A DNA stretch of 63,971 nucleotides from Discostella pseudostelligera. Lineage: Eukaryota; Bacillariophyta; Thalassiosirophyceae; Thalassiosirales; Thalassiosiraceae. Each line of letters starts with the position of its first letter. Position 1 is the stretch's first letter. A program made the translations under genes and the position numbers. The notes under the pieces were generated by a model. That model was not told the DNA's origin, made no database searches, and was given only the letters and a program-made list of their open reading frames with translations. Location: contig JALLBK010000095.1 in assembly GCA_036940085.1 (NCBI GenBank), forward strand, positions 1 to 63,971, written 5' to 3'. Shown here piece after piece: positions 19,798 through 57,180 of the stretch.

Positions 19798-22700
19798 TCA
19801 CTCGTCTGACAATTTTTGTTTCTTCGACGAAGGCGATAGTCCAAAACTAAAGTCGTACAAATCATCTCCATCCTCGACGCCAGTCGTCGATGACGCACCT
19901 AAAAGGAAGGCGTTCCTTTTCAAATCGTTCCTATCGGCACTACTGCTGCCTACTCCTACATCATCATTAGTCGCTGGGTCCACAGCCAAATTATTCAAGA
20001 TTCTCGACTTGGACGATTTCCCTCTCGTCAATACATTCTCCTTCATACCGAGCCAATCCTTCACAAAGTTCTGACGAAATTCCTGGCGTTCGATTTGGGC
20101 AGAATAATTCACCATGTAGTTATGTCTCATGGCATCGTCAGCTGTCATACGCTTTTTCGGATCAAGATGCAATAGTCCATCGATGAGACTTATTAAACCT
20201 GCAAAATCAGCATGATCATCTCTGCTCTGGGTCTTGAGTAAGTGGCGTAGGGCCTTCTCCACTCCGCGAGAATACTTCTTCTTCTTCCCCTCCTCTCCGA
20301 TGACGAACATGTTGTTAGAATAGTACGGAAATTTCTTCGCCTTCTCATAGTTGTCGCTATCGGGAACGCCGACAATTTTGAAGACCTGTATCATCTTCGA
20401 AACCCGATCTTTCCCAGGGAACAATTGCTTACCCAGGAGGAGGTTGGCCAGTAGTGCTCCGAATGCCCACATGTCTGTTTCTTTTGTGTGCCGAGTTCCA
20501 CCCAGTAGGATCTCGGGTGCCGCAAACGGTTCGACATCCTCGGTATTATGATCCTTCCCTTTCTTGGAACGCACATACTTGAGAGGATCGAACTCTCTCG
20601 TGCGATCCTTGCCGTGTAAAACCATAACCTTCGACAGGCCACTTAACTTTGCAGTGCCGCTGTGGTCAAGATGTATTTGATCGGGCAAAAGACTCCGTAG
20701 AATGATGTGGTTGGAGTGGCAGAATGAGAGCGCAGACAATATATCATGGCACCAGCTGGCCAACACCGGTGACGGGATAATGGCGGCGGCATTGCTCTTT
20801 CGCTGACACCAGCTCATGACCTTTTGAAGATTTAGAGGAGTTGGCTCAAGGACCAGGTGTGAACCCGGCGCCAGCTGCCTTTTCCCCGCTGCTCGTTGAT
20901 TCCGTTCAATCATTGCCAAAATGTCGTTCGCGGCGTTACTCGATGTGATACTGCTAGAAGTTTCAGAGGCGGGTTCTTCCTTGGCATCCGAATCTAATGC
21001 AATCGCCAGCGGAAGCATGAAATTTGGATGACCTTGGGGCGATGGAATCAGGAAGTGGAGTTGATGCAAAAGCTGCATTTCCTGCAATGCTGCCGCCGAA
21101 TATCCCATTTGCATACTTTGCCCCGACGACGAGTTTTCTTTCATTTCGACCTTTTCAGGTGGCCAGCGCTGGAGAGAAATCGCCACAGATCGGTCATTCT
21201 TCTGTGCTTCTTCGCCTTCGGGGCCAGATAAGTGTGATGCAAGAGTGGGGTATTCGACCTGCATTCTAGAATACCCCCCAGCAAAAGATTGTGCCAGTAA
21301 TGCCAATGCTCGCATGTCGACTGAATTCTTATTGATCAGCTTCGGAGAAGTAAAGATTTCGCACAGTGATCCGCTGAGACTAGGGCCAAACTGATGTGGC
21401 ACCCACCATCGTAATCCAGCCGAATCAAGATGTTCATGCGGTGCATTGGCCGCGACGCACGTCTTCCATCCAGCATCGTGCATTTCCTCCATGTTGTCGA
21501 ATGCACCGTACCATCCTTGTTTGCCATCAATTTTCTGCATATCGAGCAGGCCGGGTTTATCCTTGACTTGTTTGATGACGATGCCATGGGCTTGCGATTT
21601 ACGGTTGGGCTGCTGAGCATGCACGCCAAATAAGGCAGATTGCAGCATTGCATTGGTAGCCGCCGATTGCTCAAATGGCACAGGTGGGGGCAGCGACGCC
21701 ACCTCGCAAAGCAGGTGCTCAGCAATAGACAGTGCTTTCCAGTTCCCCTCTAAAATCATATCATTGGTTCCATCCAACATGCCATCTGAAAATCGAATGG
21801 TACATTTGCTCTCGAAGCTAATTTTAGTCAGAACAGGCAAAACTTTCTCCTCGATACGATCGCTCCTCACACCGCGAAAGACACTACTCAACTTTGCACG
21901 CTCCGAGATTTCCTTATATGCTGGAGACGACACAAATTTGGTATCATCAATTGCTTGAGACCCGGGGTGTTTGCTGATGTATGTCGCACAGTCCATTTGG
22001 ATCTTTTGAATTTTGCTACCCATGTTTGATACATTACTCTCACTGAACAGTTCATGGGATGACATCAAGGCGACGCTTTTCTTTACACGCGATAAGCCTT
22101 GACATGAATGATAGATAAGTTCCGCTGCGTGCGACACCGTGAGAGGTTGCAAAGACAGCGCGGGAAAGAGCGGCTCCATATCAATAGAGAGGAAGCCTGC
22201 AATCGCCGCAAATGCATACTTCGGTCCGTACTTGAGCCAGAGGATAGGGCCAGCTGCTAGCACATGTCCCGATAGAGCCAACGCCATCGCGTTCTCAGCA
22301 AGTGGCCCGGCCATGGCCTTGGTACCCACAACCGCATTGATGACCCAATCGGCACCAGACCAGAAGACGTCATAATTCAACGCCGATAACACCATCTGCT
22401 CAGCCTTGATTACACGTCGTTCCCAATTCTTTGCCTCTTCACTCTGAGGATTGAACAACGACCCAGGATAAAACACACGGTAGGCATGCTCAAGAACTTC
22501 CTCCAATCTCTTCCACTTGAGGACCTTCTGAGACTTATTGGCAATGAAGAGAGATGCTAATTGTACGTCACGCAACTTGAAGCTGTTGCTTGCGGTAGTG
22601 TTGAGCAGGGTCGGATTGTTCGCCGAAACCGCGCGATCACCAGTATTAGACAATTTGAGATTGATGTAACGGTAGAAAATGATGCATGCGTGGGCGGCAA

Positions 22701-25700
22701 CCTTCTCAGACATGCCCGATCCAGTAATAATTTCCGAGATTTCGAGGCATGCCACTCCGACGGCACGGGGGTCGGAGAGTCGTAGTGAGTCGGCGGAGCT
22801 GATGGGCTTGGAAGGAGCAAACGTTGTTGCAGCCGCATCTTGAGCCAGAGTTGAAGCAGCTGCTTCGGGACCATTTGAACCTGCCAAGCTATTACCATTG
22901 ATGTGATCCGAATCCAACAACAGAGCCCAATCCCTACCGAAACCCCATCGCTGCTTTCGAATATGATGATCTCGGAACAACTCGATTTGAAGATAGATCA
23001 ATTCCTCGGCTAGGTCGATCCTTTCATCCACTTGCGCACTACCGACGTCTCCAACGCAAGCGGTGTCGTCTCCACCATCGAGACGGAGATGCGAACTGCC
23101 AGTGATTTCGTCCACCTTGACTTCCACGCCACTCGTTTTTTCGACAAAGTCAAAGAAATAATTCCACCCACCACCATTCTCTCGAGCAGTCAACTTGATG
23201 GGCTCACGAAGTGCAGGCAGGTATATTTTGTTTGGCCCCAAATGCATGAACCGCACCCCCCTCTTCAAATCCTTAACACGTAACTTTAATTGCTCCCACA
23301 ACTTATTTACCCGAGCGGGTGTCACGCCAAAATAAATCTTTCGTGGTTTGTTAGGATTGGCCTCATTGATCACACGATTGTTCGATACCCGCCCCATGTC
23401 CTCCTCCACTTGTACCCAAATAGAACAGCGATTCGTTTCCATGAACGAGGTGGCAAATGTCGAGCCACGTAAATCCTCACATGCATCATTGTTGGTCGTC
23501 GGTGATCGCTTCAAATCGGCAAACAACATGCGAAATTCATTGTGGGATAGTTCGCCGCCCAAAAATCCCAAGTCTTTGTAAACACCAATCGGTAGACGCG
23601 GCGCATTGGATTGTAAACACATTTGTGTTAACTCATTGTACAAATACTCCATCGCTCGGTTTAAATCACTTTCGACATCGGCGGATAATGTCATCTTCGC
23701 AAATTGCTTCGATTTTGAGTCGGAATGTGTGAATGTCACGTCGACATTGTAACAATATCCCTTCAGGGAGAAGAACCGCTTCTTAACCTCATCAACAATG
23801 ATTCGCGGTATGATAACCTCTGTTTGCGAAGTATTACCACTGGCTGTTGATGGAGATCCAGGCACTAGGGTGATAGAACTGCCAGTAACTCCGGCGCCAT
23901 TCCCCGCCGAAGGTTCAATGCCATGTAAGTCGTTGTGAATCTTTCCAGCCATCTTCTCAAGCCAATCCATCGCACTTTTTACTTCCATACCGGTGACCAC
24001 TAATTTCCAAATGTAGCCATCCTCTGACTCTTTGTATGCCTTGCTCAACAAGGTGCGTTCCTCATCATCGTCTCCTCCGTCAATACCTCCATCCACGGCC
24101 TCTTCGCCATGAGGGATGGTGATTTTGATAGTGTCAATGTGCACCCTTGAATACTGGGAACACTTGAACAACGTGTGACGCGTGATCATGGCATCTTTGA
24201 TGGGAGTTTGAATATACATGTAATTCCGTACCTTGGAGGGTGGTATTGGAGAAGTCGAGCGGTCGGATCGGGGTGTGCCAACATGTAAGCTAGATGTCGA
24301 GGTTGAAGCACCACCAATACCGGAGAGTGCTGACACATTGATGAGTAGAGACGGTTCGTTGCTATCCTCGGCCAAGTTCTTCCTCGCAATGGCATAGGAA
24401 CTCTGTTCCCCCGCCCCTCCTATTCCTCCTGTCATGGCGATATCCGCGCCATACTCCAACTGTGGCTCCTCCAACAACATCCACTTCTCCTTACTCAAAT
24501 CCGTCCAATTTTCCTCGGCAGTATCATCACGACGGTACATCAATAGATGCATCTCCGAGACGCTATCGTAATGAGCCACATCGGCAACATGAAACTCGTT
24601 CGTATCAACATCGTACACCTTCACAACACGGTTCATTAGTTCCTTCCCCGTTCGTCCCTCCTGCTCTAGCCAATTCCCCTCGGCCTCCTCTTTCAACTCC
24701 AATTCCCGTTCCTTGGCATCCTTGGGCATTTCAATAGTGCCGCGACACTTCTCCGCACCACAATAACACTTGGTTAATGCCCTCCCTCGTTTATATTCCC
24801 ACTGATAATCAAAACTTAATTCCTCCCCCTCCTTTATTTCACGTGTCGCAAAGATACAAGCGCGGGATATACCCCGCACTTTCCATCGATGTACCGCACA
24901 ATTCGGTTCACAACTGTGATTAATATATCGGGCAATACCCCCCCGATGCCGAGCGTCAATGTACACATCATTGTCCAATGCCATGATATATAACATTCGT
25001 TCATTCTTGTATCGTCGGAATAGGTCATCAAGAAATAGTCGTTTTACCGCCACACCGACATACTCAACAATAAAGTCACCCTGATTGCAATGTTCTTGGA
25101 CTGCCAATCCCCGTCCTTTGGTACCAGCATCAAAGACACATAATTCCTTCCACTCCTTGCGTTGGATACGTTTATTGCCACAGAGTGGTCCGGCGGGACA
25201 GCTAGTACCACATTCTTCTTGACAGGCAAATAGTGCGCACGTGGTGTCAATACAGCAGGTATTTTGGAGGGAGAGATCTGGCTCGCAGAAGCATGGTTCA
25301 GGACGCAATGCCTTGGGACGGGGTGCTTTTTCGAGGTTGGATGCGACGAGATGAGAATGATGATGATGACTGAGTGCTGCCGTGGCAGGAGTAGTCGTCG
25401 TAGTGGTTGAGAGGTGCATGGCGGCGGGACCTTCATCGGCCCATTCCACTTCGGTAATATGCTCCACATCGGTGGGAAGAGAGATGGGTCGTTTGGGTAA
25501 TGAGTGAGATGCGGGATTTTTCCAATGGAGGGAGGTTGTGTACGTGACATCATGCGCTGGTGTTGTTGATTGTTCATTGGCATTTGTTTGGTGGGGAGTG
25601 GATAGTGTAGACGTTGTTGGTGGTAGTGGGGGTGATAGTAACGAAGATGACGGTGACGATAATAATTGTTGCGTTGGAACAACATATACAGATTGTATTC

Positions 25701-26796
25701 CGGGTGGTGGTATTGGTTGTTCAGTGGCACCAGCGGAAACAGAAGTAGTAGTCGTCGTAGGATGGTTATCTTGGGGACAAGCCCGTGGTACAGTGGGTGG
25801 TGGAGCGTCTGCTACCCCTCCTCCCCCCGATGAAATGTTAGTAGTAGAAGACGACAATGAAAGATACACCTCTCCCTCTTCCCTCTCTTTGCCATTGTGA
25901 TGTTGTTGTCGCATGTCATTATAAGAGCTTGAATCAGTAGCATTATTTGTAGTAGGGGGGTAATGACCAACGGGACTATTCTCTTGGGAGGATGGCGACA
26001 CTGCCAAGCGTGGATTCATAGGTCCAGAAATAGTAGGTTCGGACGAAACATCATGGGGGGGACGGCCTCCTCGGCTCAGTGGAACGTAGTATTCATTGTT
26101 GACATTGTTGTTACTGCTGTTGTTATTTCTTGGAAGATCACTGCCATTGTTATTATTGGGAATGTTAACATTCATCCCCTCATTGTTATTATGTTGATGT
26201 TGTTGTTGTTGATGAAGGTGCTGCTGCGGCTGCCATGATGCATTTTGTGATGGAGGAGGAGGGGTGGAGGAAGGGGGCGGAGGCCGTGCGAAAGGTCGTT
26301 GAAAATCAGGATATGACGACGACTGTCGAGGTTGCTGCTGGTATTGATTATAATTTGGTGACAATCCCCCAGTACCAGCAATACCATTGTCCCCCTCCAT
26401 TGCCGGAGATTGAAACCGATGTCGGAACTTTGGGTGGCCGTTGCTGCTGCCATGGCCACCACCGTGATTATTATTATGCTGTGGCGATTGTGACAACATT
26501 TGCGTAGGGTGCTGCTGAGTATATTGGGTGTTGTTGTTGTTGTTGTTGTTGTTGTAATGATTGTTGTAGCTTGCACTGCCACCACCGTTGCGGTTGCCAT
26601 TGACATTGTTGCGCCATTCCCCCTCTGCTACTGAATTATTGTGCCACCTCTCCCCACCGCCACCGGTTGTCGTCGTTGCTGCTGCTTGTCGTTCATTGTC
26701 ATTGTCGCCATGGTGGCTGACACTCCATCGTAGGCGCGGGTCCATTGCCTGCTGTTGCTGTTGCGGCGGCTGCTGGTGGGGCACTGATGAGTCCAT
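19798..26796 (-). CDS. SET methyltransferase-Tudor-cyclin-pseudokinase fusion
   Basis: One uninterrupted 2332-aa frame with no intron and a clear ATG (MDSSVPHQQ). Domains: 1-490, Q/N/P/S-rich disorder; 495-690, a cysteine-rich AWS (CFCEPDLS, CQEECGTSCPAGPLCGN), SET core (GRGLAVQE, YINHSCEPNC, EELSFDYQW) and post-SET (CYCGAEKCRG), as in SETD2/ASH1-type histone H3K36 methyltransferases; 710-765, Tudor-like (VKVYDVDTNEFHVADV, LSKEKWML); then KH-like segments; about 1340-1560, a cyclin box pair (FKLRDVQLASLFIANKSQK, AEQMVLSALNYDVFW), closest in style to transcriptional cyclins; 1650-1710, another KH-like segment; 1900-2220, a CDK-like kinase fold. The kinase keeps AAPEILLGG and DMWAFGALLANLLLG, but HRDLKPxN reads LRSLLPDQ and DFG reads SGLS, so it should be inactive. 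Nuclear coupling of H3K36 methylation to RNA polymerase II phosphorylation is inferred. Divergent partner: TGS1. Confidence 0.85.
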   Translation of the reverse strand: MDSSVPHQQPPQQQQQAMDPRLRWSVSHHGDNDNERQAAATTTTGGGGERWHNNSVAEGEWRNNVNGNRNGGGSASYNNHYNNNNNNNNTQYTQQHPTQMLSQSPQHNNNHGGGHGSSNGHPKFRHRFQSPAMEGDNGIAGTGGLSPNYNQYQQQPRQSSSYPDFQRPFARPPPPSSTPPPPSQNASWQPQQHLHQQQQHQHNNNEGMNVNIPNNNNGSDLPRNNNSSNNNVNNEYYVPLSRGGRPPHDVSSEPTISGPMNPRLAVSPSSQENSPVGHYPPTTNNATDSSSYNDMRQQHHNGKEREEGEVYLSLSSSTTNISSGGGGVADAPPPTVPRACPQDNHPTTTTTSVSAGATEQPIPPPGIQSVYVVPTQQLLSSPSSSLLSPPLPPTTSTLSTPHQTNANEQSTTPAHDVTYTTSLHWKNPASHSLPKRPISLPTDVEHITEVEWADEGPAAMHLSTTTTTTPATAALSHHHHSHLVASNLEKAPRPKALRPEPCFCEPDLSLQNTCCIDTTCALFACQEECGTSCPAGPLCGNKRIQRKEWKELCVFDAGTKGRGLAVQEHCNQGDFIVEYVGVAVKRLFLDDLFRRYKNERMLYIMALDNDVYIDARHRGGIARYINHSCEPNCAVHRWKVRGISRACIFATREIKEGEELSFDYQWEYKRGRALTKCYCGAEKCRGTIEMPKDAKERELELKEEAEGNWLEQEGRTGKELMNRVVKVYDVDTNEFHVADVAHYDSVSEMHLLMYRRDDTAEENWTDLSKEKWMLLEEPQLEYGADIAMTGGIGGAGEQSSYAIARKNLAEDSNEPSLLINVSALSGIGGASTSTSSLHVGTPRSDRSTSPIPPSKVRNYMYIQTPIKDAMITRHTLFKCSQYSRVHIDTIKITIPHGEEAVDGGIDGGDDDEERTLLSKAYKESEDGYIWKLVVTGMEVKSAMDWLEKMAGKIHNDLHGIEPSAGNGAGVTGSSITLVPGSPSTASGNTSQTEVIIPRIIVDEVKKRFFSLKGYCYNVDVTFTHSDSKSKQFAKMTLSADVESDLNRAMEYLYNELTQMCLQSNAPRLPIGVYKDLGFLGGELSHNEFRMLFADLKRSPTTNNDACEDLRGSTFATSFMETNRCSIWVQVEEDMGRVSNNRVINEANPNKPRKIYFGVTPARVNKLWEQLKLRVKDLKRGVRFMHLGPNKIYLPALREPIKLTARENGGGWNYFFDFVEKTSGVEVKVDEITGSSHLRLDGGDDTACVGDVGSAQVDERIDLAEELIYLQIELFRDHHIRKQRWGFGRDWALLLDSDHINGNSLAGSNGPEAAASTLAQDAAATTFAPSKPISSADSLRLSDPRAVGVACLEISEIITGSGMSEKVAAHACIIFYRYINLKLSNTGDRAVSANNPTLLNTTASNSFKLRDVQLASLFIANKSQKVLKWKRLEEVLEHAYRVFYPGSLFNPQSEEAKNWERRVIKAEQMVLSALNYDVFWSGADWVINAVVGTKAMAGPLAENAMALALSGHVLAAGPILWLKYGPKYAFAAIAGFLSIDMEPLFPALSLQPLTVSHAAELIYHSCQGLSRVKKSVALMSSHELFSESNVSNMGSKIQKIQMDCATYISKHPGSQAIDDTKFVSSPAYKEISERAKLSSVFRGVRSDRIEEKVLPVLTKISFESKCTIRFSDGMLDGTNDMILEGNWKALSIAEHLLCEVASLPPPVPFEQSAATNAMLQSALFGVHAQQPNRKSQAHGIVIKQVKDKPGLLDMQKIDGKQGWYGAFDNMEEMHDAGWKTCVAANAPHEHLDSAGLRWWVPHQFGPSLSGSLCEIFTSPKLINKNSVDMRALALLAQSFAGGYSRMQVEYPTLASHLSGPEGEEAQKNDRSVAISLQRWPPEKVEMKENSSSGQSMQMGYSAAALQEMQLLHQLHFLIPSPQGHPNFMLPLAIALDSDAKEEPASETSSSITSSNAANDILAMIERNQRAAGKRQLAPGSHLVLEPTPLNLQKVMSWCQRKSNAAAIIPSPVLASWCHDILSALSFCHSNHIILRSLLPDQIHLDHSGTAKLSGLSKVMVLHGKDRTREFDPLKYVRSKKGKDHNTEDVEPFAAPEILLGGTRHTKETDMWAFGALLANLLLGKQLFPGKDRVSKMIQVFKIVGVPDSDNYEKAKKFPYYSNNMFVIGEEGKKKKYSRGVEKALRHLLKTQSRDDHADFAGLISLIDGLLHLDPKKRMTADDAMRHNYMVNYSAQIERQEFRQNFVKDWLGMKENVLTRGKSSKSRILNNLAVDPATNDDVGVGSSSADRNDLKRNAFLLGASSTTGVEDGDDLYDFSFGLSPSSKKQKLSDE

Positions 26797-27225: not shown

Positions 27226-29428
27226 ATGAATGACAATAGCAACAAACGGGCCCACTACCACCACCTACAACCTTCATCAAACAACCCACCACCGCCACCA
27301 CCGTCCAACAAGCGTCGTAAGAAGAACAATACAAATAATCACAACAAGCACAAGAATAAGAAGCAATCTTATTGGAGCGGTGCTCATAGCAATTGGATTG
27401 AGAATTGTTCCGATACTGCAAATCGAGTACTATCCAAAGATTTTACAGCACCGTTGTTGTGTCTCATTACCCGGGCAGAGATTGGTTTTGATGATGAGAA
27501 TGATGAGAAGGTGGTGGTGAATGAGGTAAAAAAGCCGATGCCGCAGCTACCGTCGTCAGAGAACGGACGAGGAGAGTTGGTCGATCATAATGTTGATGCT
27601 GGCGTGGGGAGAAGGAGTTCTAATGCCGGAGACGATAATTATGATCATGGTGGAGGACCAACGGTTGCATCTCCAGCCAATTGCTGTATTACTGCCGCCA
27701 AAACCGCCACGAAAGCGGATTGTTCGTCTGCTATACATGATGCGGAACAAGTTGATGTTGGCGACGTAGAATATGTTGCTCCAACAGCAACAGCAGTAGA
27801 GGTACAATCTTGTTCAGCATATATAGCATCAATGACTGCATCAATATCAACATCAGTAACATCAAAATCAATTGATCATACAATATCCAACATTGCATGG
27901 CCATCAACATCATTTTTATTACAATACGCAAGAGAGAGAGTACCATTCGAGGTACTATCAACAATTCGAGGAGATGGTGATGCACAAGAGAAAAGAATTT
28001 TTATACCAGTGAAACGGCATGCAAGTGCTATTGGTCCAACCAAGGTGAGATTTTATGCATGAATACGATGCAAATGTCCGAAATCCAGTTCTACTACATT
28101 GCTTTCTGACATTGTATGCACCACTTCGCGACCCGATTCCTTGGTATCTAATCGCTTGACAAAAATGCACCCCAAACATCATGTACCAATAGTGGGTACA
28201 AGTCCAAACGTCCAAAGCTGCCAAAATGCGCAATCAAATATATCATCATCTCCCTAATGGCGATAATGGAGATGGCATATGCAATCCATATCCGACAGTT
28301 CCTAACAAATTTTGGGCACAGCGAAAACTATTGTTCAGTCGGTACGATGAGGGGATACGGATTGGAGGTGAGGATGGAGGAAGGGACGTTCATGACGTCG
28401 AGCAAAATGATGAGCAAGTAGGACTCGAAATGTGGTACAGTGTAACACCAGAAGCAATTGCAAATCACATTGCGGATAGGATGGTGAAGATGATATTGAC
28501 AGCTTGGAACAAGAATGAGAATGCAAAGGTTACGACGAGCAAATCCCTGTCGGCTGAGGAAAGCAATGATGGATATAGTCATCAGAGAAGAGACATCATC
28601 ATTCTTGACGCGTTTTGTGGATGTGGAGGAAACTCTCTTGCATTTGCACGATGGAACGAACGACATACATCATTAAATGAGGCTGATGGTGGACATCAGC
28701 AGCATGAATACCGTACTGACAACGATAGAGATGCTGACATTGACCGCTCTCCTCGTGTGAAGGTGATTGCAGTGGAGAATAATCTATCGAGATTGAAAAT
28801 GGCGGCGCATAATGCCTCCGTATACAATGTTCCTCGAGAGAACATTGTATTTATTCATGCAGATGCTGTTGAGGTATTGAATCATTATAGTCATGGTAGT
28901 ACTCGAAGCACAGCAAGAAATGACGATTGCGGTAGTAGTGGCAGTGGCAATTGCAAACAGCATCATGGTTCGGAAGCATCCTATGCAGGATTTGCTGTCG
29001 GAGGAATGGATCTCCTCCCAAACAATATAGATAGTATATTCCTCTCCCCTCCTTGGGGTGGGATGGATTATAATCAAGCTGGAAAGGCTGGATTTGATCC
29101 TGTCACATCCATTACTGTTCAATCTTGTGCTTCTTCTGTACACGAGCCGGATGGGAAAGTGGAGGGTACTGCATCATATACACCAACCACCGTGACTACC
29201 AATGGTGGAGAGCTATTACACATTGCTACCAAGGCAGTGTACGATGATGCCAATCATGAGGGTGTCGTTGCGTACTTCCTCCCACGGAATGTCGATGGTA
29301 TTGCACTTGGGAAAATCGCCGTGGCATGCGACATCAAGGGATGTTATGAGATGGAGCAAAATGTTGTCAACGGCAAAGTCAAAACTGTTACTGCTTACTT
29401 TGGCCAGGATTTCGGAAATGGTTATTAG
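27226..29428 (+). CDS. TGS1: Trimethylguanosine synthase (RNA cap methyltransferase)
   Basis: Two exons (27226-28044 and 28193-29428) give 684 aa. The class I methyltransferase adds two methyls to N2 of the m7G cap on snRNA and snoRNA. Motifs: NKFWAQRKLLFSRYDEGIR, WYSVTPEAIANHIA, SAM-binding DAFCGCGGNSLAFA, FIHADAVEVL, catalytic SPPWGGMDY, VVAYFLPRNVD and the C-terminal KVKTVTAYFGQDF, all in the family order. Residues 10-50 are basic (KRRKKNN), a likely nuclear localisation signal. The region between the N-terminus and the catalytic core is a long disordered extension. The acceptor at 28192 (CCAATAG) is the one that keeps phase. An upstream in-frame ATG at 27082 would add 48 residues; 27226 is preferred only weakly. 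Confidence 0.85.
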
Positions 29429-29731: not shown

Positions 29732-30875
29732 CTAGATATTCTCCTTATCCAAATCATCAAAGTAGGGATGATTCAACGAATCCTTGGCGGTAATCCTATC
29801 CTTGGGACTGTATGCCAGAAATCGTTCCAACAAATCCAACCCAGCACCATTGGGATCGACATTGTCCAAAAATGTCTTACAGAAGGGAGATCGATACCAA
29901 ATGGGGAAAGCTGTATTCCAATCTGGCAATGAGGTACAGCCAGGCCATACCGTCTCATCGGGAGTGCCCAGCTGACGGAAGATTTTGTATATTTCATCAA
30001 TTTCGGAATCCCCGGGGAATAATGGCCGCTTCGTGACCATCTCAACGAAGATGGTCCCGAGTGCCCATACGTCCATAGGTGGGGCGTAGGTTTGTGATCC
30101 CAGTAGAATTTCGGGTGGACGGTACCACAATGTCACCACTTCATGTGTCAATGGTCGAATGGGGGGACAGAAGGCCCGGGCCAATCCAAAGTCGGCAAGC
30201 TTCAATACTCCATCTCGCGACACTAGTAGATTCTGTGGCTTAAGATCACGATGCATTACACCGCGAGCATGACAAAAGGCAAGACCACGACACATCTGGA
30301 ATAGGTACGACTTTACCAACATGGGGTCCAGTAGGCCATTGTAGGATTCCAGTGCCTTCTTCAAATCCCGATCGAGGAATTCAAATACCAGATATAGTTT
30401 GCCGTCCTGTTGAACGCAGTCTTTGAGGTCGACAATGTTCTCATGACTGAGTTCACGTAGAAGTGAGATTTCACGCAAGGCCGTAGAAGGGATGCCTTCA
30501 TCTTCCACCTCAAGACGGATGCGTTTCAAGGCCACAATTTCGTCAGTCTCGCGATCGCGAGCCTTGTAGACGACGCCGTAGGTTCCCTCGCCGAGGTTGG
30601 AGCCTGGCTTTTCAATCTTTTGATAGCTGTTAGAGTATTCATTTGAGCGCAATTGAGATGAAAAAAGAACGAACCGGTGAGAAATGATGGCATTGAGGTG
30701 ATGAAATCAATGAAGAGTCGACATCATCAATGGATGCAGCAGCATTGCCCGGAGAGATTTCACAATGATGCATAGCCATAGTAGCCGTAGAATGCAATGC
30801 CGATAGATTCTCATGATAGTCGTCACCGTATTCTGTCATCGACACCGTCGTTGGGAAAGAGCCACCCAATGCCAT
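29732..30875 (-). CDS. Cyclin-dependent kinase with PSTALRE helix
   Basis: Exon 2 encodes a complete [13 protein letters not shown] with the inhibitory Thr/Tyr pair, [41 protein letters not shown], the activating Thr in [27 protein letters not shown] and [21 protein letters not shown] is intermediate between CDKA (PSTAIRE) and plant CDKB helices; diatoms are known to have such a CDKA2-type kinase. A frame-consistent model uses exon 1 30875-30675 (ATG, 67 codons) and exon 2 30616-29732, 361 aa in all, with a 58-nt intron and an unusual GTTCGT donor. The alternative acceptor at 30627 would keep the conserved YQKIEK but breaks phase, so the N-terminus is uncertain. It shares its promoter with a mitotic-type kinesin. 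Confidence 0.85.
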
Positions 30876-50474: not shown

Positions 50475-53400
50475 TTACTTAGCCAATTCATTTTGAAGTG
50501 CTTCAATCTGCGCCTTGATTGAAGCTATCTTCATCTCGTTGATCTTCGAGGTAATCGCGGCGTCATTCGCTGTGTAGTATGCAAGCACAGCTTCGTTGTC
50601 CTCCCAGTCGGCAGTGCACATTCCCTCGAGAATGTTGAGCGCACTGACAGAGTTCAATGAGGAGTCAGCAGCCTTGAGATGCGCGACGTAGTTGTCTTGG
50701 GCGATGCGGCGCTTGGCAAGGTAGAAGAAGTATTTACGAGATTGAGCCCAGGGCACGGCGTCCTTGATAACACCCTTAGCCTTCATCCTTCCAGTCTTAT
50801 CGTGAAGGTCGGCAAACTCAGTTGCAGCCTGGAGGTAAACAGGCTTCAACAATTCCTCCCTCGCGGCGATCTGCTCTTTGATACTTGCCTGAGCCGTCTT
50901 ATCAGTGTCATCCGTTGATTCGAGTTCAGCATCAAGCATCTGGAGTTGAGGGTCAATACGGTGCATGGCCTTGAGTTGATCGGCGACACGGAACTTGATC
51001 TCCACAATACCAGCTGGTTCAAGAATACCACCACGAGCTTCCGGATCAGAGAACATCGTCATCTTTTCTTCGTTGATGGTAGGGTCAACAACCACCCATG
51101 ATCCTCCACGGAGTTCACCAAAGGGAGGGAAGTATACATAGATGGGGTGCTTGTAATCACGGAGTGCATCGACAATCATGGATCCAAATTTAAGAATTTC
51201 ACCAGACATATCACGACTTCCACCACTGAATCCACGCCAGTTCGCAAAGATCATCACCGGTAGGCCCTCGTTGTTGAAGTCACGAAGAGCCTGTGCTGTC
51301 TTGTAGGAAGAGTCGGGGAAGAGAACCTGACCAGCCTGAGGCATGATGGCCTCTCGCGAGTTGGGATCAGCGGGGTCGGCAGGGATAATTCTCTCCACGA
51401 GACGTGTCTCCACTGCAATTGCACCCATGGGAATACCACCAAGACGGCCGCGGCCAATAACAACACTCTTACCCCATCCTGCAAGATATTCCTTCCAGCT
51501 TCCCTTATCAAAGAATCCAGCAGCGTCATCAGTTCCAGAGAGCATAAGGCGAGGATCGTAGGGTGTGGGGGTAGGCTTCCACTGAACATCACGATTGACA
51601 GGGTCGGCGGATTGACGGACAGGAGAGATTGCATCGGTAGTCTTAGGGACGAAGCTGAGCCACTGTATGATGGATCGCACACCTTCTTGATCGTCGTCAA
51701 CGACTTCATGGGTGCAGCCGTTCGGGAACATAACCTGTGGGCCACCAAGCTGATCGTTAGAGGTGTACACTTCACGTCCAAGAAGTTTGTTCAAAGCACC
51801 ATAACCAGTGAGGAGCATAGGTCCTTGCTTCATTTGAATGACACGCTGTCCAAGACGGACAAGGTAGGCTCCAATACCGACGCTCCGTCCAGTAACATAA
51901 CTCAAAGTGAAGATCTCATTGTAAGCACGGGATGTTTCTCCTGCAATCTTTCCACTTCCTTGCAAGTTCTCAACGCCAATACCTTCACTGGTACCGATGA
52001 TATCCTTAATTGCCCAGCCTTCGGGGACCTTCTCGACATTCACCGAGCCCTCTGGCAAAGATTTGTACACATCGTCTGTGAGGTAGAGGTATTCAAAGCC
52101 CTTGGACGGATTGGCAGAATCGACGAATTTGATGTTGAACTTGGGCTTGAGGTCTTCGACGAGACCAATTCTTGCTCCAGAGTTACACGATAGGTAGACA
52201 CGAGGAATCTTGTGCTCACGAGCATACTTCGATGCCTTGTAAAAGAGTTCATCCTCAGGAACGCCGAAAGAGCCACTCTGAACAGTTACATCGTTCGAAA
52301 TAAAGACAACCTCGCGACCTTCGGGGTATTCAGGAGTCTTCATCGTGACAACCCATGCAACCATGCCCACTTTGTTGGTACCAATTTCGCGCTTGCCAGG
52401 GTAAAGCTCGCCATCATCACCTTCAACAAGCTCCTGGGCCTCGAAGACGTTAGACGGGGTGCTGGGGACATCAGAGCCGGACATACCACTCAAGTATTCA
52501 TCCCACTCTTGGAGCAAGCCAACCTCAATAAGACCAAGGAAATCATATGCATATGTTGATCCAACTCGACGGGCGATGGCACGTTTAGTCTGAATGATGT
52601 TTGCTCCATCGTAGGGATCAAGCACGCAAACTGAGTCCTTGCCCTCTCCAATAACACAGAATTCACGGGTGACACCAGTGACAGGATCAGGACGTTCAAT
52701 GAAAGCAGAAGTTTTGAGCCACTCTCCTTCCATCGAGGACGCAACAAGGCGAACAGGTACGACCATGGAGTTGCCTTGCTCGTCGACGGACTTCACGCGA
52801 ACCTTGGCTTCAATTTCATCCACGCGAAGCTTCAACAGACGCTGAGCCAACTTGCTCTTCAGTTTGTCGACGACCACGTTGAACTCTTTCGCAATCTCTT
52901 CAGGACTGGCACCCTCGACTTCAGGGAGAGCATGGAGGTAGATGCGCGAAGACGATTGAAGTGAGACCTTGGAGTTGGATTGCACACGCTCCAATTCATC
53001 AAGTCCTTGGAGGAGCATACGACGCGCACCAGACATGGTGGTAAGTCCAGGGGTGTGCGTAATTCCGCGTACAAACACAACCTGGTTAGCATTGCGTCGG
53101 GCGGCCTTCTCTGAACCAACGTAGATCTGAACATTGCGTCCAACGGCAGGGATGCGCTCAAGGGCGAAGTTATCACTGAGACGGCTGAGCTCAAGGAGCT
53201 GGTGGAAGGTGGGTCGCATTCCACGTCTGAGCGGGTCCTCCTTGAATCCATCACAATGAGGGAAGGTGTAGTAGCTCGGGTCCTTCTTGCCTTGGGTGAC
53301 AAGGACAGTGACGGTGCGAATTCCAAGCATGTTGAGTTTGTCCTTGTTCGCGTCAATGGCAGCCTGGAGGTCTTCGATACTAGCATTGCCAGACAAAGCA

Positions 53401-56400
53401 CCAATCTGAAGCACGTTGATGGGGCCTCCAGCGGAACCAGATCCTGAGATCTTGGATCCCATAGCATTCAAAATTGCAGGAAGCTCTTTTGAGAGATCGC
53501 CAGCATTCTTCATCGTTGAGAAGAATCCTTGACGGGTGACGCGGTCGGCACTTGGCACATCAATAAACTGGAATTCAAAGCTGCATGAAAGGCGACCATC
53601 AATGTCTTCGACCGTCAAGCTTGGGATGTTGTAGGTGCGGTAGACTCGTCGGTTGTAAACTTCCAAAGCTGTCTCACGAACTTTCTTATCTTCGTCATCG
53701 AAAAGGTTGGTAAGAAGGTCAACACCGGCAGAAAGGGTAGAGCTCTTGCTAAGCTCAACGAGGTCAGTCTCTGAATCGACCAACTTCGAACGCAAGTCAG
53801 CACGACGGACATCAAAAGAAGGGACCTTTGCCTCACGAACTTTCTCCTCAGCAGCAAGGATGATTTCACCGTAATCCTTTCCTTTCAATTTGGAGAGCAT
53901 ATCCAAAGCATCGATAACTGAATCAGGAACGGCAACTCCAAATCTTCCCTCGAAGTTGTCCAATTGACGGATCATAGCAAGAAGCAATTGGGAACGAAGC
54001 TTCAGCTGTTGGTGTGCCAAGTTTTCGGAGATAACAACATCAAGTGATTCAGCATTGGCTTTAGTGAGTGCTCGAACAACATCATCGGTAATTTGTCCAT
54101 CGAAGGTTGACTCCACCCGGTAGAATTCCTTAATTGCGTTCACAATGAGTTCGGCGGCGGAGGCACTGTCTGAAACACTATCAAGGGCGCGTTGAGCCAC
54201 TGCCTCGGCGTCAAGCTTGTAACCAGCTAGGACGTTGGAAACAGCCTTTTGAGCATCCATTTCAACGACAGATTCAGCAATATCAAGTTTGCCACTGAAA
54301 GTTCCAATCTTCTTCACCTTGGATGGATCCTTGAGCTCAAGCGAGGCAAGCAAGTCACCGGCAGAAATGACGGATCCAGGGCTGAGGTTGTGAATGATCT
54401 TTCCAGACTCAGATGCCTTGATGGGAATGATCATCTTCATGGCCTCGACTTCAACATATGGCTGCCCAGATTCAACGTTGGCGCCGTTGTCCTGGAGGTA
54501 GCGGACTACCTTTCCAGTGACGTCGGTGCGGAGTTCAGATGGGTCGAAAATGGTGGGCCTGATTAGAGAGCAAACATAATGGTCAGACGGGTATGCAGCC
54601 GAAGGATAAACAAGGCAATGAAGATGAGTAGAACTTACATCAAAATAGTATTGCCATCAAGTGATAGACGCAGACCAAGTGGTTCATCCATGCCAAAAAT
54701 ACGATGCTTCTCTCCTCCAAAGGTTGCCAACAATGCACCCTCTGGTGTCTGGGTGACCTCCGCATCGATGACATTACCATCCAATGTGAACCTGAAGACA
54801 TCTGGCGAAACGCGTTCCACTTGGAAGGGGTACTTGGTATCCATGTAAGCCACCTCGATGTTGAACGAGTTAATTCCAGGAATATCACCGGTAGACAACT
54901 GTCCTTTGCGGAATGATTCCTTCACAGCCTCAGTAGATGTCTTAACGTGTTCAAATGCCTTGAAGATGGCGGCAGAAACAACAACAAGATGGGATGGCAT
55001 TTCAACAGCCACAGCCTTCTCCTTGATAATACCATCAAGCCACGAGGTATCAATAGTGTTTGCCTTGAAGGCTTCCGTCTCCAACAGCTTCACAAGGTAC
55101 TCAACGGAGTTACGAATGTCACCACGGACTTCCATCTCCTTCAAAGCCAATACCAATGCCTTGCGTGCAGCCTCGCGGTTAGGTCCCTTGGCAAACAAAT
55201 GTCCGAATTGGGAGTCAGCAAACTCGTGAATTCCACCATTGGCACCGACGGAGAAGTATCCCCAAACGTTAGGAGTGGATTGGAACTTGATGCGTTCGAT
55301 GGATCCAGAGGTGGGCTTGAATCCTTCGTCGGGATTCTCGGCTGTGATACGGGCGGCAATAACGTGAGAGTCAATGTCTTGGTAACGCTCCTCAAGGAAA
55401 TCAATCGGATCAGTGCCAAACACATCGGGACGGCCGTAGAGCTTGCGAATCTCAGGAATGTTAAACAGAGGAATGCCCATAGCAACTTGAAGCTGTGTTG
55501 CAGGCAAGTTCACACCGGTAATACCCTCAGTGACAGGATGCTCCACCTGAAGACGGGGGTTCAATTCAAGGAAGAAATACTGGTTCGAGTCGGCATTGTA
55601 TAGGTACTCCACGGTACCGGCACCCTGATATCCAATGTTCTGCGTGAGACGCTGTGCTGCCAATTCCATCTCACGGAACGTCTCCCTGGGAACGATGGCG
55701 GGTGGACCTTCCTCAAAAATCTTTTGGAAACGACGCTGGGTAGAGCAATCACGACCATTGAGTGCGACGGCATTTCCGTGCTGATCACCGACAATTTGGA
55801 CTTCAATGTGACGCGCGTTCTTGCAAAGCTGCATGATGAAAATGGGTGATCCCACGACCTCATTCGAGACCTGAATGTAGGCATTGCGCAAATCGACCTC
55901 GTTGTCAACGAAACGAATACCCTTTCCTCCTCCACCCTCCGATGCCTTGATCATGATTCCATTCTCGTATCCGATTCGCTTCGCGGCCTCGACGGCCTCC
56001 TCCACAGTGCGGGTAGTACCCTTCTCGAAGATTTCAGTAGGAATCGTTCCCTCCGCATTCAAATTCGCCTGAAGTGGACCATCGTCGGGTCCACCAAAGG
56101 ATCCACTCCATGGGATGGAGGGGACCTTGGCCGTCTGGGCCAAGATATTTGCAGCAATCTTGTCTCCCAACACGGACATGACGGGACCTGTAGGACCAAT
56201 GAACTTGATACCCATGGTGTTCAAGGTATCGGGCAACTTTGGATTCTCACTAGCATGTCCCCAACCAGGCCACACAGCATCCACTCCCTGCTCCTGAGCG
56301 ATTTTGGTAATAACACCAACATTGGCGTAGTTGTTCAAGTTCTTTCCACCGGGAACCTCAACGAACGAATCGGCCAAACGGATGAATTCGGCATTGGCCT

Positions 56401-57180
56401 TGAGATCCTCGGGTGTGGCCATGGCAACGAATTGAATAGCACGTTCATCACCAAAGGTCATGTAGGCCCATTGACGCATGGAGAGGATGGATTTAGTGGC
56501 AGCCATACCGTTGTTCGCGATGAGGACCTTGCGAATGGGACGGTCACCCCCACGAGATTTGACATACTCCTCGACGGTTTCTGCATCAGAAGAAGCCGAA
56601 GAGGACGATGCAGATGCCTTATCGAGTGTGGCAGCCCAAAGGGAGGTGTCGATCTTGGCAATGTTCGATGGACTCACGGAGACTTCATTGTTTTGGAAGA
56701 AGGCACTTTTGATGGAGCCGAATACGCTTTTGGCAGGTGTGATTGTCTTGGGCGTAAATGCAGACTGTTGGGGAGCTGTTATCACCAATAATTGAAACAA
56801 ACCAAACCATTGAATTAGGTGAGATGTTGCAGTAAAACAGAATCATTGTGAAAAATGACAATCTACGAGACACTCCTCTCATATTCCTCGACATGGCATG
56901 TATGACATGGTTGGTATCATAGCGATAGATTTCGAAATGCACATGATATGATTGCACTCTTCCGCGCTCACGTAATTCGAGTTGCGACTACACTTCACTA
57001 TTGCACATGATGTACACCCGACCAAGCCATCTCCACCACCGCCAAATTCACAAAAAGATCCAGCCAACAACATTGTCATATCCAAATAGGAGTGTAGATG
57101 GACTCACCAAACGAGCTGACCCCCGACAGTGCAAGTAACGCAGTCGCAGCGGCGGCGTAGCCGCAGCGTCTTGACATCAT
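50475..57180 (-). CDS. ACC1: Plastid homomeric acetyl-CoA carboxylase
   Basis: Three exons (57180-57108, 56775-54639, 54558-50475) give 2097 aa. The enzyme makes malonyl-CoA, the committed step of fatty acid synthesis. Exon 1 encodes a signal peptide (MMSRRCGYAAAATALLALSG) ending VSSFG-APQQ, an ASAFAP-like plastid-entry site formed exactly across the splice. Biotin carboxylase: RPIRKVLIANNG (about 99), ATP-grasp EGGGGKGIRF (about 308), EHPVTEGITGVNLPATQLQVAMG. The biotin carrier site VEAMKM has its Lys at about 778. A long central domain follows, then carboxyltransferase: SNDVTVQSGSFGVPEDELF (about 1493), SCNSGARIG and FANWRGFSGGSRDM (about 1841). All catalytic motifs are intact and the length is normal for eukaryotic multidomain ACCase. 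It is divergent from the MGDG synthase gene. Confidence 0.95.

Follow-up and report, generated by a model that had tools for sequence, protein, structure and literature searches.

We describe a gene in a 63,971-nucleotide window of Discostella pseudostelligera (contig JALLBK010000095.1; positions below are those of the window) that joins a histone lysine methyltransferase, a cyclin and a cyclin-dependent kinase (CDK)-like pseudokinase in one chain. What is firm is the presence of the SET, cyclin and kinase domains in this order, the recurrence of that arrangement among diatoms and the loss of the phosphotransfer residues from the kinase. The reading that we favor, at a probability of roughly 0.45, is that the transcription-type cyclin and the dead CDK form a pair in cis that would serve as a docking or positioning scaffold on elongating RNA polymerase II (Pol II). 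In yeast and animals, methylation of lysine 36 of histone H3 (H3K36) is tied to transcription by separate proteins: a kinase phosphorylates the Pol II C-terminal domain (CTD), and Set2 recognizes the phosphorylated form. In diatoms, a single chain appears to combine the enzyme that modifies the histone with an inactive copy of a kinase–cyclin pair.

Layout and recurrence of the fusion

The minus strand carries an uninterrupted frame of 2332 codons, found by open reading frame (ORF) analysis and translation of the window, and the one intronless frame of a preliminary description of this DNA is thus borne out. Its parts are listed here with the evidence that defines them.

19798..26796, minus: whole coding frame, 2332 residues; ATG at 26796, stop at 19798–19800; full-length relatives exist
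25477..26796, minus: residues 1–440, poorly conserved low-complexity N-terminus rich in N, Q, S, P and H (translation, conservation profile)
25117..25302, minus: residues 499–560, AWS and pre-SET part (PDB alignment over 499–688; invariant Cys columns in 25 rows; Pfam AWS in only 3 of 25 relatives)
24802..25116, minus: residues 561–665, SET domain (domain matches, column counts of N626, H627 and Y664)
24727..24801, minus: residues 666–690, post-SET Cys cluster (translation, PDB alignment, conserved columns)
24463..24654, minus: residues 715–778, Tudor-like stretch (profile match to 7de9; strands in the AlphaFold2 model)
22954..24222, minus: residues 859–1281, four KH-like units of approximately beta-alpha-alpha-beta-beta-alpha order, fold unconfirmed (AlphaFold2 secondary structure; KH_1 matches in relatives)
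22087..22779, minus: residues 1340–1570, T/L-like cyclin fold; K1421 and E1466 align with a Lys and a Glu of cyclin T1 (profile matches, AlphaFold2 model, column counts)
21697..21891, minus: residues 1636–1700, fifth KH-like unit, between cyclin and kinase (AlphaFold2 secondary structure)
20026..21564, minus: residues 1745–2257, two-lobed CDK-like pseudokinase with a long N-lobe insert (domain and structure-profile matches)
21175..21177, minus: Ser1874 at the VAIK lysine position (column counts)
20692..20700, minus: residues 2033–2035, Leu-Arg-Ser replacing His-Arg-Asp (HRD; column counts)
20635..20643, minus: residues 2052–2054, Ser-Gly-Leu replacing Asp-Phe-Gly (DFG; column counts)

Most blocks across residues 500–2250 are well conserved. 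The family was taken as P0001–P0149, that is, sequences scoring at least 443 bits in a search with the chimera as query plus members from two other homologue or profile searches; entries from P0150 onward were excluded from family counts, including P0151, although the SET tree groups it with diatoms. All three domains are present in the same order in 131 of the 149 members and the other 18 are partial, a count that describes order and completeness and not independent discovery, as 121 of these rows had gone into the domain profiles. Among the matches listed (the best 120 of 193 in the first homologue search), the closest relative is a D. pseudostelligera protein with 95% identity over residues 480–2300, and all named members are diatoms save one scaffold labeled Alexandrium tamarense. 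Since that entry has 62% identity and is placed among thalassiosiralean sequences, it is probably a diatom contaminant. The named genera are Discostella, Cyclostephanos, Cyclotella, Stephanocyclus, Thalassiosira, Skeletonema, Thalassionema, Seminavis, Nitzschia, Cylindrotheca and Fistulifera, together with members assigned to Bacillariaceae; the same arrangement recurs across many diatoms.

Could chance or faulty prediction have run two neighboring genes together? The partial members, which include transcript ORFs marked complete, are the point in favor of such an artefact. Against it stand the uninterrupted frame, four MMETSP ORFs and P0120 that hold all three parts, and partial entries that overlap one another, P0060 spanning SET into the cyclin and P0123 spanning the third KH-like unit (KH3) to the kinase. 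We rejected an artefactual frame, which we regard as extremely improbable, because so many members share the order and transcripts carry all parts.

Searches for relatives beyond the diatoms gave no match with the full set that is named as a non-diatom. A cyclin–kinase profile search (the 7995 most word-sharing candidates scored) gave 16 matches of 488–1629 residues, none a named non-diatom, and the chimera query (7995 candidates) gave 86 matches at E ≤ 1e-5, of which those with both Pfam SET and Pkinase were all family members and none a named non-diatom. No relative was found at 95 pattern places in viral contigs, and the matches in an NCBIfam scan were all far under cut-off. With regard to the stramenopile survey proposed in the preliminary description, these searches found the architecture in diatom relatives and, in part, in Triparma (see below), with no named non-diatom among the candidates scored that holds all of it.

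The dead kinase and its cyclin

Structure profiles matched both lobes of a CMGC kinase fold, with CDK12 in the top rows, tied with other CDKs. Catalytic residues were counted only over rows that hold the domain and have a letter at the column. The VAIK Lys is absent from all 140 rows (Ser in 139, Thr in one), as are the HRD Asp (0 of 140) and the DFG Asp (0 of 139), and the catalytic-loop Lys occurs in 2 of 140. The HRD Arg position holds Arg in 136 and Lys in 4 of 140 rows, and the alphaC and APE Glu residues are retained throughout (140/140 and 139/139). Compared with PSTAIRE, the alphaC region has an S-x-A-A-L-Q-E-like sequence, with this Glu in 140 of 140 and the Ser in 141 of 141 rows. 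The kinase is thus predicted to be catalytically dead throughout the family and no kinase activity is expected; an active kinase was ruled out by the loss of the VAIK Lys, HRD Asp and DFG Asp in every row. A canonical CDK about 3 kb away on the same strand (29732–30652, minus), which served as a control, has PSTALRE and intact VALK, HRD and DFG motifs (Pfam Pkinase, E 2.1e-70). Compared with the assembly, the kinase part found itself and ten weaker kinase matches, the best at 54 bits. Because the lost VAIK lysine is almost always replaced by the same residue, the near-constant Ser suggests a specialized or maintained pocket or surface and not drift.

The N-lobe carries a conserved insert (residues 1793–1869; 21190–21420, minus) with a Gly-Leu-Arg-Trp-Trp motif that is invariant in 6 of 6 rows of one alignment and invariant or nearly so in 46 of another.

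The cyclin profile is closest to cyclin T1. Cyclin_N matched 19 of the 25 members scanned (E ≤ 0.1). In individual members the match lay above cut-off for P0034, P0038 and P0064 and below it for P0120, and P0052 had none. K1421 is a Lys in 141 of 142 rows (one Arg) and E1466 a Glu in 141 of 141; the cyclin T1 residues with which they align are ones that we take to be CDK contacts. These features are consistent with a transcriptional (T/K/L-class) cyclin. The likeness to P-TEFb (CDK9–cyclin T) and CDK12/13–cyclin K lies in the cyclin T1 profile and the CDK12 top rows, whereas the diatom version is fused and has lost its catalytic residues. AlphaFold2 modeled cyclin and kinase confidently as a single body (predicted template modeling score, pTM, 0.84), so in the C-terminal half the cyclin may pack against the pseudokinase of its own chain, as a candidate cis pair. 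The preliminary description had placed a cyclin fold and a CDK-like C-lobe in this part of the chain (residues 1340–2220), where the analysis found a cyclin fold and a kinase fold with both lobes.

The retained cyclin residues also fit an explanation in which the cyclin acts in trans: it would recruit a separate, active CDK9- or CDK12-like kinase, with the pseudokinase as a secondary platform, and so couple H3K36 methylation to fresh CTD phosphorylation. A CTD target exists, because at least 21 YSPTSP motifs follow the Rpb1_7 domain in the Rpb1 gene of this genome (G000:C118:14000-17700, L048), and the genome holds ordinary CDK-like kinases, the neighbor in the window being one. However, the partner closest at hand is the conserved pseudo-CDK of the chain itself, and the model treats the two as one body. 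A genome search for codons spelling PITA-x-RE gave no match, though the motif would escape it if variant or if interrupted by an intron or a gap. We consider recruitment in trans unlikely. The YSPTSP motifs are mostly YSPTSPA or YSPTSPV and lie over three frames with stops between them, as though heptads were spread in small groups over mini-exons of their own; a two-heptad pattern gave no match, as it disallowed the Ala found at the seventh place.

The methyltransferase half and the docking reading

The AWS-SET-post-SET module belongs to the H3K36 clade by PDB alignment and profile matches, which did not tell SETD2, ASH1L and NSD apart, and agrees with the SETD2/ASH1 type named in the preliminary description. 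N626, H627 and Y664 are present in all rows with a letter there (138, 138 and 139, respectively). The protein is predicted to be a lysine methyltransferase of this clade with H3K36 activity. It shares AWS-SET-post-SET with Set2/SETD2, ASH1L and NSD, and differs in the Tudor-like, KH-like, cyclin and pseudo-CDK parts and in that no SRI domain was found, either in the window protein (Pfam, E ≤ 1) or in 25 members (E ≤ 0.1), although a diverged SRI could escape. The SET part matched seven places in the assembly, this gene at 486 bits and six others at 20–77 bits; the two of the six that were read (C318 and C76) look trithorax/SET1-like, judging by their motifs.

The Tudor-like stretch matched 7de9 (E 2.4e-6), an entry titled 'Transcriptional regulator' that we take to be a Tudor domain, and PF21743 stayed under cut-off in P0143. 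For the KH-like units, KH_1 was detected in 2 of 25 members, unit-to-unit profile matches were weak and no PDB profile matched. Of the pieces proposed earlier, the Tudor-like stretch is a candidate Tudor domain and the KH-like ones are not confirmed as KH domains. In a SET tree, the MMETSP row P0151 groups with 15 diatom rows in a single clade (100/99), while Triparma, P0152 and others are unplaced and 13 of 32 inner branches are open; 12 of 47 rows were left out by choice, and the chosen rows include no ASH1L or NSD reference. P0153 (933 residues) combines a ubiquitin carboxyl-terminal hydrolase domain with a SET domain that is accompanied by a weak AWS match.

We favor the docking scaffold as the simplest account of a Set2-type enzyme that has no detectable SRI and has acquired a transcription-type cyclin together with a dead but conserved CDK. 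The cyclin–pseudo-CDK pair would dock or position the methyltransferase on the machinery of elongating Pol II and so take the role that SRI has in Set2/SETD2, and the Tudor-like part might read a nearby mark. If the module does dock on Pol II, a cyclin–CDK would be reusable purely as a targeting device, and the protein would offer a clean genetic test in a laboratory diatom with existing H3K36me3 maps.

Several observations weigh against this reading. SET, cyclin and kinase were found in the family by the profile searches suggested at the outset, but Pfam finds no cyclin in the window protein itself (E ≤ 1), and the case for packing in cis is the global confidence of the AlphaFold2 model only. 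A genome search for SRI gave no match while its controls were silent too, an AWS search missing even this gene, and the source assembly (23.0 Mb, 963 contigs) may lack genes. Some MMETSP ORFs marked complete are partial: P0123 (1217 residues) and P0128 (699 residues) lack SET, and P0151 (618 residues) has SET alone. No Phaeodactylum tricornutum protein is among the matches listed. Finally, orthologs of PITG_14137, a Phytophthora protein considered below, are reported, in the passage on this protein, from P. ramorum and P. sojae and no other species, that is, from three Phytophthora species only (PMC3019232).

The pair might instead control the SET domain allosterically, folding back on it as a gate. 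Pseudokinase domains gate catalysis in other enzymes, and both the conservation of most blocks across the protein and the constant Ser at the lost VAIK lysine, with the maintained pocket or surface it suggests, would suit such a role. The two halves were modeled apart, however, the SET–KH half with low global confidence (pTM 0.43), and no contact with SET is indicated; we consider gating unlikely too.

Age of the fusion and earlier work

A Triparma laevis (Bolidophyceae) protein of 1042 residues matches the family profiles for SET (246 bits), Tudor (26), KH3-like (14) and cyclin (32) in the family's order, and it stops short of where the kinase would begin. Because it matches both profiles in order, the SET–cyclin pairing may predate diatoms. 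In the same protein, Pfam detected SET and a weak unrelated family, with no cyclin at E ≤ 1. P0152 has SET (206 bits) and a weak cyclin match (8), and the other 13 SET proteins scanned alongside gave no cyclin profile match at the printed cut. One tentative history, which we hold to be possible but less than probable, is that, early in the stramenopiles or ochrophytes, a transcriptional cyclin–CDK pair was acquired by the H3K36 writer, lost catalysis and became an elongation-complex docking module replacing SRI, a fossil P-TEFb/CTDK kept as a targeting domain.

A fusion of a histone writer with an inactive CDK-like kinase is not wholly new. In Phytophthora, PITG_14137 joins a histone-lysine methyltransferase at its N-terminus to a CDK-like kinase described as inactive (Judelson and Ah-Fong, 2010; PMC3019232). 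It shares these two parts with the diatom protein by description, in a passage that names no cyclin. The diatom fusion could thus be an old stramenopile protein homologous to this one, with a role independent of Pol II, such as one in mitosis or, through the KH-like units, one linked to RNA. The published pairing and the Triparma profile matches, which suggest that part of the fusion predates diatoms, would agree with this, but the likeness is one of description, the reported orthologs are confined to three Phytophthora species, and Pfam sees no cyclin in the Triparma protein. We judge this quite improbable.

The same paper reports, in the part concerned, single-chain CDK–cyclin fusions in oomycetes, two ciliates and Theileria and not in T. 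pseudonana or P. tricornutum. These share with the diatom protein a CDK-like kinase and a cyclin in one chain and a replaced catalytic Asp (there by Asn); they differ in that the cyclin is C-terminal to the kinase and no SET is mentioned in that part. Wu et al. (2023; PMC10421102) treat diatom SETD2, name PtSETD2 (Phatr3_EG02211) and describe conserved motifs IV–VII in polar centric and some raphid pennate diatoms; the words kinase and cyclin do not occur in that text. The fusion may explain these unassigned motifs, the identity of the stretches being a candidate one. Our literature search, with subscription papers mostly outside the searched set, found no paper describing this fusion in diatoms. 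The earlier claim that writer, cyclin and inactive CDK-like kinase had not been described in one chain holds to that extent for diatoms and has to yield to the Phytophthora protein for the writer and kinase. The present analysis adds the presence of a cyclin, the distribution across diatoms, the total absence of the VAIK Lys, HRD Asp and DFG Asp, and the Triparma relative with its SET, Tudor-like and cyclin signals.

Besides the canonical CDK, the window encodes an RNA cap guanine-N2 methyltransferase domain (28226–29428, plus; PF09445, E 5.1e-22) and, in two adjoining frames (50475–56800, minus), acetyl-CoA carboxylase domains (biotin carboxylase, central region and carboxyltransferase).
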